A stretch of DNA of 64,000 nt, from the NCBI RefSeq assembly GCF_029338395.1, contig NZ_CP119809.1, positions 2,108,001 to 2,172,000 on the forward strand, written 5' to 3'. Made by a program: the position numbers and the translations under genes. Below, piece after piece: positions 8,831-57,523 of this stretch (the stretch's first letter is position 1; each line of letters starts with the position of its first letter). The stretch is from Halorussus caseinilyticus. Lineage in GTDB: Archaea; Halobacteriota; Halobacteria; Halobacteriales; Haladaptataceae. A model generated the notes under the pieces. It searched no databases and was not told the DNA's origin. It saw only the letters and a list, made by a program, of their open reading frames with translations.

Positions 8831-8872
8831 GAGAAGGGGGTCTGGTCGGAGAAGGGGGTCTGGTCGGAGAAG
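8831..8872. repeat. 18-bp tandem repeat, 2.3 copies
   Basis: The unit GAGAAGGGGGTCTGGTCG is present at 8831-8848 and 8849-8866 and a third copy starts at 8867. It lies just after the stop codon at 8814 and directly before the terminal inverted repeat of the element at 8874. Confidence 0.9.
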
Positions 8873-8873
8873 C

Positions 8874-9168
8874 TAGCTACTGCTTGAACCGATGACTCGT
8901 GAGACCGGCCGAACCCTCGTGGACGGTCCCACCGGGCACTATCGCGGGTTTTACCCCTGCGTTTCGTGGATTGTCGCCGACCACGGGACGCGCGCCGCGT
9001 TCGCGCGGTTCCGCGCGAACGCGGCGCGGGGAGGTACGGGGCGCGGTGCGGTATGATTGGTTCAAGCCTGAAGTCGTCGTCTCCCCGTCGGGTCTTAGCG
9101 TCTCCCCGTCGGGTCTTCCGGTTGCAGTGCGGTTGCGGTGCGGTCTTCACGGGTTCAAGCAGTAGCTA
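8874..9168. mobile_element. MITE-like intergenic element with terminal inverted repeats and long hairpin
   Basis: A 295-bp non-coding segment between two genes. Its ends are 17-bp perfect inverted repeats: TAGCTACTGCTTGAACC at 8874-8890 and the reverse complement at 9152-9168. Inside, 8991-9008 and 9011-9028 form an 18-bp perfect hairpin with a two-base loop. The hairpin is flanked by CCACGGGACG on the left and GGGAGGTACGGGGCGCGGT on the right. An 18-bp direct repeat GTCTCCCCGTCGGGTCTT occurs at 9079 and 9100. No transposase is encoded. Related flanks and hairpin occur at about 40.9 kb, and the end motif GCTTGAACC recurs at 24.8 kb. A non-autonomous mobile element is an inference; a structured RNA repeat is the alternative. 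Confidence 0.55.
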
Positions 9169-9278
9169 CCGTCGCTACGTCCGCTGAACTCGCGGTTAGC
9201 GTCGGTCTACTCGCGTTCCCGGTTCACCGCGCGGTCCGACTCGCAACCGCTAACATCCCGGTCCGCCAACCTCCGGGT

Positions 9279-24785: not shown

Positions 24786-24950
24786 GCCAAAGAAGCTAGC
24801 TTCGGGCTTGAACCGATGAAGACCGCACAGCACTGCGAACGCTACAGCACCGCAAACCGCACCGCTACCGCGGACTGCACTGCCCCCCGAACCTCCCCGC
24901 GAGCGCGAGCGCAGACGCGGCGCGTCCCGTGGTTCGATATTCGGAGCGCG
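24786..24950 (+). repeat. Intergenic repeat related to the 8.9 and 40.9 kb elements
   Basis: Starts with AAGCTAGCTTCGGGCTTGAA, continues with several ACCGCA blocks and ACCGCACCGCTACCGCGGAC, then CGAACCTCCCCGCGAG and GCGGCGCGTCCCGTGG. The same succession of blocks, on the opposite strand, is found at 8874-9168 and 40855-41066. The central hairpin is imperfect here, so this copy looks decayed. Any reading frame through it is Arg/Thr-rich and unlike a haloarchaeal protein, which is why the peptidase start is set downstream at 25071. Confidence 0.55.
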
Positions 24951-39188: not shown

Positions 39189-39217
39189 GAGAGGTGACAG
39201 AGGACCACGAGCGAGCT

Positions 39218-39330
39218 AGCTTCAGGCTCGAACCTATCAGACCGCGACCGCACCGCTACCGCGGACCACACGCCTCCCCAACCGACTCGCTCACTCGCGC
39301 CGTCGGCGCTCGTTCGCTCGTCCCTCGCGC
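39218..39330 (+). repeat. Intergenic repeat of the GCTTGAACC/ACCGCACCGC family
   Basis: Starts GAGCTAGCTTCAGGCTCGAA, then GACCGCGACCGCACCGCTAC, CGCCTCCCC and a series of CTCGC/GCGCCG blocks. Very close to the first half of the 24786 copy; the long perfect hairpin is replaced by GCGCCGTCGGCGC. The stretch 38958-39480 holds no gene. Confidence 0.5.
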
Positions 39331-39480
39331 GACGATGGCGCGACACGCTCCGCGGTCGCGCCAGCGCGCGCCGGGTCGTCAGTCCCGCCCGGCGCGTCCG
39401 CGGTCAAGTTCCGAACCGAGCGCGTCCACGTTCCCGACGAATGCTAACTTCTAACAACCTGTCCGTCGTACGTCGGTGCC

Positions 39481-40854: not shown

Positions 40855-41066
40855 CACAGTCCACGGGACGCGCGCGACGCCACAGTCCACGGGACGCGCC
40901 GCGGGCGCGCAGAACTGCGCGCCCGCGGCGGGGAGGGACGGGGCGCGGTTGCGGTGCGGTCCTGAGTGGCGTCGGCAATCGACCGCTGTGCGGTGGCGGT
41001 TGCGGTGCGGTCGCAGTGTCGCACGAAACGGTCACGTGCGGTCCGACTGGTTCGAGCAGTAACCGA
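40855..41066. repeat. Intergenic repeat with 16-bp perfect hairpin, related to the 8.9 kb element
   Basis: A 19-bp direct repeat CACAGTCCACGGGACGCGC occurs at 40855 and 40881. The second is followed by the hairpin 40897-40912/40915-40930 (16 bp, AA loop), then GGGAGGGACGGGGCGCGGT and GCGGTTGCGGTGCGGTC twice, ending at GGTTCGAGCAGTAACCG. The flanking words CCACGGGACG and GGGAGG-ACGGGGCGCGGT are the same as around the hairpin at 8991-9028, but the stem sequence differs while pairing is kept. No gene is seen in 40737-41163. Confidence 0.6.
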
Positions 41067-57286: not shown

Positions 57287-57444
57287 ACTACGCTCTCCCC
57301 CACCACGTCCTCTACCTGCCACTCGGGAGCCACCAGCATCTGGTCGTCGCGCGGGGAGTGACTCGTGTGGCCGCGTGTGCCCGCGCTCGCGCTGTGCGGT
57401 CGGGGTCGCGTTCGCACTCGCACCGCGCCCGAGTACGTCGCGTC

Positions 57445-57476
57445 GGCGTCCGCGCGCAGGACTGCGCGCGGACGCC
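57445..57476. repeat. Perfect 15-bp hairpin, possibly related to the 8.9 and 40.9 kb hairpins
   Basis: GGCGTCCGCGCGCAG at 57445-57459 pairs with 57462-57476 around GA. The CGCAG-GA-CTGCG apex closely resembles CGCAG-AA-CTGCG at 40.9 kb. It precedes the membrane-protein gene at 57524 by about 48 bases. The flanking conserved words are only partly present here. Confidence 0.55.
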
Positions 57477-57523
57477 GCGCAGAGACCGACAGACCGATTT
57501 TCCCTCGCCGCGTTGGGCCGGGC

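Follow-up and report, generated by a model that had tools for sequence, protein, structure and literature searches.

A dispersed intergenic palindromic repeat of Halorussus with conserved boxes and freely varying stems

Two hairpins in one archaeal chromosome are flanked by the same short words, CCACGGGACG on the left and GGGAGGNACGGGGCGCGGT on the right, and their stem sequences differ, yet each is fully paired. What kind of element keeps its pairing and not its letters? The question arises from a window of 64,000 nucleotides of Halorussus caseinilyticus (the whole stretch of DNA that was analysed), which lies on contig C1 (3.48 Mb) of a 4.39 Mb genome. The answer that we find somewhat the likelier is that both hairpins belong to a Halorussus family of dispersed, intergenic palindromic DNA repeats, here called R1, once mobile and now kept by vertical descent, and putatively recognised by its boxes and the shape of its hairpin.

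Architecture of R1 and its copies in the window

The R1 core consists of a left box (CCACGGGAYGCG), a palindrome usually of 14-18 bp and a right box (GGGGAGGNNCGGGG), in that order. The right box, also written GGGGAGGNNCGGGGSCGCGG, continues as GGGGAGGNNCGGGG(G)CGCGG and runs into a variable number of GCGGT/GCTGT repeats, usually followed by a tail. Ahead of the left box there is often a leader of 25-26 bp iteron-like units that end in TCACMGA; upstream of the core at L098 (G000:C1 35700-41700, the same copy as L002) the leader comprises about five near-identical 24-25 bp tandem units, GTTCCGAGAGTCGTCACAACCGC. In the source genome (G000) the tail is GGTTCAAGCCTGAAGCTAGC, which occurs at 123 places with three mismatches or fewer (control, 0). 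Tails in other species are different words, often ending in GTAGCTAGC, and an exact search with the tail word across genome contigs gave no match.

Both hairpins stand where the preliminary description placed them, with the flanking words confirmed by direct reading. Copy 1, on the forward strand, has the left box CCACGGGACG at 8981-8990, a perfect palindrome at 8991-9028 (18+2+18, apex GGTTCC; fold z -4.35) and the right box GGGAGGTACGGGGCGCGG with the start of the GCGGT repeats at 9029-9052, reading GGGAGGTACGGGGCGCGGT from 9029; the R1 model matches 8969-9054 at 81.3 bits. Its tail, GGTTCAAGCCTGAAG at 9059-9078, was found as a 20-mer match at four mismatches. By direct reading the whole module is bracketed by tail-like words, AGCTAGCTACTGCTTGAACC inverted at 8871-8890 (reverse strand) and GGGTTCAAGCAGTAGCTACC at 9151-9170 (forward strand). 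Such inverted tail words are missing around most other copies, and no terminal inverted repeats were found across copies. Copy 2, also on the forward strand, begins with an extra 26-bp leader unit at 40861-40886 that opens with CCACGGGACGCGC (two exact matches 26 bp apart). The left box CCACGGGACG at 40887-40896, a perfect palindrome at 40897-40930 (16+2+16, apex AGAACT; fold z -4.86) and the right box GGGAGGGACGGGGCGCGG with its GCGGT repeats at 40931-40956, reading GGGAGGGACGGGGCGCGGT from 40931, complete a core matched by the model at 40875-40957 (80.8 bits); the tail, GGTTCGAGCAGTAACC, lies at 41049-41064. As single DNA strands (z -4.4 and -4.9), neither copy was equalled in stability by any of 200 dinucleotide shuffles. 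The letters do leave two nucleotides between the arms, as had been described, but folding gives a 4-nt loop on both copies because 2-nt loops cannot close.

How many further relatives does the window hold? Two decayed ones had been proposed, and the two proved to be different things. The first, at 24786-24950, contains a true R1 member on the reverse strand at 24872-24944 (copy 3; 44.6 bits), with its tail GGTTCAAGCCCGAAGCTAGC at 24795-24814; both boxes are kept, the 3' arm of the palindrome is deleted and no hairpin is left (fold z +0.40). The second, at 39218-39330, is instead an intact member of another family, R2, which occupies 39215-39379 on the reverse strand: nested hairpins followed by GGTTGGGGAGG at 39265-39379 (88.4 bits, E 5e-19) and the tail GGTTCGAGCCTGAAGCTAGC, common to the R1 family, at 39215-39234. 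What it has in common with R1 does not go beyond GGGGAGG, the tail and the GCGGT repeats. A hairpin with a similar apex had also been listed at 57445-57476. Its pairing is perfect (reverse strand, 57415-57496; fold z -6.2), but its boxes are eroded and its kinship to R1 is doubtful (30 bits, genome-wide E 0.035).

Pairing of the stems in DNA or RNA

The stems of copies 1 and 2 differ at three positions, every one compensated. The wider family was examined with a covariance model built from 15 genomic copies and with two sets of equal-length copies (25 and 18 sequences), which were aligned without gaps so that the structure had no part in the alignment. The set of 25 holds 62 cells changed on both sides, against 20.3 ± 3.2 when shuffled, and 3 changed on one side; the set of 18 holds 45, against 11.1 ± 3.0, and 1. 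Together this is 107 both-side against 4 one-side (wobble) cells. Covariation scores are 0.44 and 0.51, compared with 0.11 and 0.14 for shuffled sequences; none of 500 shuffles reaches them, and shifted pairings collapse. Across 101 distinct stems with 1,574 pairs there are only 19 distinct isolated interior mismatches, two of which derive from a chance ORF match in L102. Pairing kept under stem change, as first proposed from the two window hairpins, is strongly upheld in both gap-free sets and across the 101 distinct stems as a set, and stems changing without paired substitutions were not observed across genomic copies.

Does kept pairing mark a selected structure, in RNA or as a cruciform, as the preliminary description held? 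The pairing stands, but the step to selection was too quick, because one-step copying from arm to arm and exchange of stems would leave paired changes likewise. Selection on the hairpin of a small RNA gene or UTR element would account for the strong covariation; we judge this improbable, since a selected RNA is expected to be rich in G.U pairs, with G.T exceeding A.C on the transcribed strand, and neither is observed. G.U is almost lacking, and a strict count of interior mismatches gives G.T 7 against A.C 4, a difference that is not significant; it replaces a first, loose count (20 against 13) that took in many stem ends. Moreover, the relation to flanking genes is not fixed, no promoter-like word was seen by eye at a fixed distance, and neither the window nor ten sampled loci gave an Rfam match to the element. 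Covariation alone, we caution, does not prove an RNA.

DNA is the favoured alternative. Copies with the same arms carry reverse-complement loops in 7 pairs against 1.1 expected (0/2000), a small count set against a simple null; at orthologous loci, AA faces TT in L263/L272 and in L114/L285. The near absence of wobble and the inverted loops point to DNA hairpin processing, and to arms being rewritten together in DNA hairpins. How might this work? The palindrome would form a hairpin or cruciform in DNA, and synthesis or repair templated by the hairpin would carry a change from one arm into the other in a single step, leaving the arms perfect; copies within one genome would also exchange stems. 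We infer such arm copying and exchange because wobble intermediates are lacking, loops are inverted and stems are similar within species. A putative trans-acting protein would then read the two boxes and the shape of the hairpin, not its letters. The same paired changes without wobble intermediates, and the same inverted loops, are also what a purely mutational account predicts: here the repeat would be dispersed and neutral, template switching during replication would keep its palindromes perfect, and neither a hairpin-needing protein nor selection on the hairpin would be involved. We regard this account as unlikely; what weighs against it is the behaviour of the boxes at orthologous loci, considered below.

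Inheritance, gain and loss of copies

The left box has 29 exact matches genome-wide, most of them heading a hairpin. The R1 model finds 40 places in the source genome, all on C1, of which 39 are unique copies because the two ends of that contig overlap; near-identical copies at G000:C1 22098 and 3468497 indicate this overlap of a circular chromosome. Contig C2 may likewise have overlapping ends (G000:C2 3241 and 386534). Placement is confined to the chromosome (39/39 on C1, 0 on the other four contigs; p 1e-4), where the spacing of copies is not distinct from random (CV 1.10 vs 0.96, p 0.16). Fifteen of 18 Halorussus genomes carry R1, with 1 to 40 copies each. The R1 search found none in G008, G016 and G017, so any function of the element is dispensable. 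G008, in which the models find neither R1 nor R2 copies, is a natural negative for partner genes.

Outside the genus there are three weak cases, G019, G165 and G299, the latter two from 391 Halobacteria genomes. The G165 locus, L319, looks like a true R1 core: positions 1501-1590 hold a clean R1-like arrangement of CCACGGGACGCGC, palindrome and GCGGGGAGG, in another haloarchaeal family and adjoining R2-like sequence. Among named records, the right box occurs mostly in Halorussus (litoreus, ruber, salinisoli, amylolyticus, halobius and aquaticus), with one Halobacteriales MAG. A viral origin was considered and rejected, its one match being a right box without a palindrome and due to chance; an Actinomycetota match is likewise chance.

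All 127 copies examined are intergenic by the calls of a home-made gene finder, and their neighbours show no orientation bias (36 tandem-same, 26 tandem-opposite, 35 divergent and 30 convergent). Intergenic, GC-rich hairpins might suggest transcription terminators or attenuators. That reading has next to nothing to recommend it here, as neither side has a T-run, convergent genes flank only 30 of the 127 copies, and orientation is random.

Are the copies inherited or inserted? At loci matched by shared neighbour proteins, 45 species pairs have the element in the same orientation and 7 inverted, though these pairs are not independent. Stem arms at 45 orthologous pairs are 0.643 identical, against 0.627 for random loci of different species (p 0.53), so the places are inherited and the stems are not. 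Random loci within one species are slightly closer (0.674, p 3e-4). Homogenisation within species is small on average; in H. ruber (G015), four loci have nearly one stem, and their orthologues elsewhere have unrelated stems. The boxes are about 0.87 and 0.91 identical in all comparisons, orthologous loci included, while DNA 10-70 bp away at orthologous loci is near random (0.63 vs 0.60). This contrast, together with the few decayed copies in the R1 score list, argues against the neutral, template-switching account, though detection bias takes force from each of the two: the search needs boxes and rewards pairing, so that box conservation is overstated, whereas the free variation of stem letters is not explained thereby.

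Copies also come and go. The gap that holds copy 2, between a HAD hydrolase gene and a DUF7490 gene, is without the element in 14 other species that have a close hydrolase orthologue, some of these gaps being rearranged (for example in G004 and G007); G010 has one element across the hydrolase gene from this gap. The copy 1 gap has an element in G007, G009 and G011 and none in the remaining genomes examined; one of these is G006, which a two-gene tree places in the same clade. Neither an insertion boundary nor a target duplication could be delimited. A MITE would have terminal inverted repeats and a target site duplication; here no inverted repeats recur across copies, and no empty site could be aligned in which to look for a duplication. 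The history of the family is a mix of inheritance, insertion and loss. That R1 occurs patchily and is lacking in some related species also suits the neutral repeat set out above. Under the reading that we prefer, R1 would have spread as a non-autonomous mobile repeat, as we infer from its random orientation, a copy number of 0-40 per species and a site specific to one species; that it is now mostly inherited at fixed places is shown by the gene neighbours and the orientation that copies have in common. The conservation of the boxes and of the positions is a better argument for function than the paired changes. A bolder reading, with rather poor prospects, is that of a chromosomal DNA-hairpin system, in which a putative host protein or recombinase would recognise the shape and the two boxes and actively rewrite and exchange palindromes between fixed sites, hairpin copying keeping a shape-coded, sequence-free mark.

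Why does the family matter? R1 is a rare case: in more than 100 natural copies the DNA pairing is kept while the sequence has turned over fully, and the loci have recognisable counterparts in other species. It makes two ideas testable in culturable hosts: that copying templated by the hairpin renews perfect palindromes, and that DNA is read by a protein through its shape. The work also exposes R2, a far larger, class-wide haloarchaeal family.

Partner proteins, R2 and known systems

Does a transposase act on the hairpin? A near-terminal palindrome, the lack of terminal inverted repeats and of an internal transposase, and an intergenic, species-specific presence would fit an element of the REP or PATE type that an IS200/IS605 Y1 transposase mobilises. 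We nevertheless hold this quite unlikely. Y1_Tnp (PF01797), matched in 10 of 18 Halorussus genomes, has no match in G000 or G010, both rich in copies, with controls positive; an enzyme may have been lost after the spread or be extinct. No R1 core lies near 40 Y1/TnpB loci of Halorussus (128 kb searched), R1 copy number does not follow the number of Y1 or TnpB genes, and each R1 unit has a single hairpin. The Y2 transposase profile (PF04986) of IS91/Helitron-like rolling-circle elements matched nothing in the 18 Halorussus genomes, nor did it match any control. A recurring partner gene was sought by comparing 482 neighbour proteins all-against-all and rejected, since no recurring family dominated once orthologues and common acetyltransferase-like groups were set aside. 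The Y1, TnpB and neighbour-gene searches found no enzyme or binding protein for R1.

Among the systems most like R1 is R2, which runs from CCCGGCGCGCGC through a nested hairpin to GGTTGGGGAGG and GCGGT repeats, with the tail of R1 in the source genome. The two families share hairpins, GGGGAGG, GCGGT repeats, that common tail and paired stem changes (in the R2 nested hairpin, 12 both-side changed cells vs 2.7 shuffled). They differ in the left part, which in R2 has nested hairpins, and in range: R1 is almost confined to Halorussus, whereas R2, with 140 matches in the source genome and present in 17 of 18 Halorussus genomes, occurs in 52 of 116 sampled Halobacteria genomes and 20 of 45 genera. 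R1 copy number is not significantly tied to that of R2 (rho 0.37, p 0.13). R1 may be a Halorussus offshoot of R2 with a swapped left part. R2 was noted at L129-L148 and L350-L361 as well as in the window; sampled loci gave no Rfam match, and the literature searched held nothing on R2. A third repeat, GGGTGGATAAAGGGGC or GGGACTGAAAGGGGC ... GGGGGCTTTC, stands behind the R1 leader in the source genome (L006, L010, L023, L030) and, in other genera, follows immediately on R2 (L353, L354, L357, L359, L361).

R1 itself was not found in Rfam or in the literature searched (box words, Halorussus repeats). How does it compare with what is known? The PATEs of Haloquadratum walsbyi are haloarchaeal and transposase-free, with a near-terminal palindrome, no terminal inverted repeats and conserved short terminal words (PMC3119063). 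R1 is alike in being haloarchaeal and transposase-free, in its near-terminal palindrome, its lack of terminal inverted repeats and its short conserved words; it is unlike them in having one palindrome per unit, not two, in sites largely common to several species, and in showing no likeness to IS605-type ends at the 40 Y1/TnpB loci. With REP/BIME sequences and their RAYT (Y1 tyrosine) transposases, R1 shares a dispersed, intergenic, palindromic organisation in many copies with short flanking words, but its stem sequence is free, its source genome has no Y1 transposase, and its foot, CCACGGGAYGCG / GGGGAGG, is long and unlike GTAG.

BOX elements of Streptococcus pneumoniae are modular repeats of separate blocks with a variable middle part. 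R1 is likewise modular with a variable middle, but that middle is a palindrome of rewritten sequence instead of a block that repeats. Integron attC sites are folded single-stranded DNA read mainly by shape, with a variable stem between conserved short boxes. The likeness to R1, a variable stem sequence between conserved boxes, is one of analogy only: the R1 boxes are not mutually complementary, there are no cassettes and no linked integrase, and copies flank unrelated chromosomal genes. By the tests made, R1 is not a member of REP, PATE or attC; by analogy, its way of working may be like that of REP/PATE elements or of the attC type of DNA read by shape.
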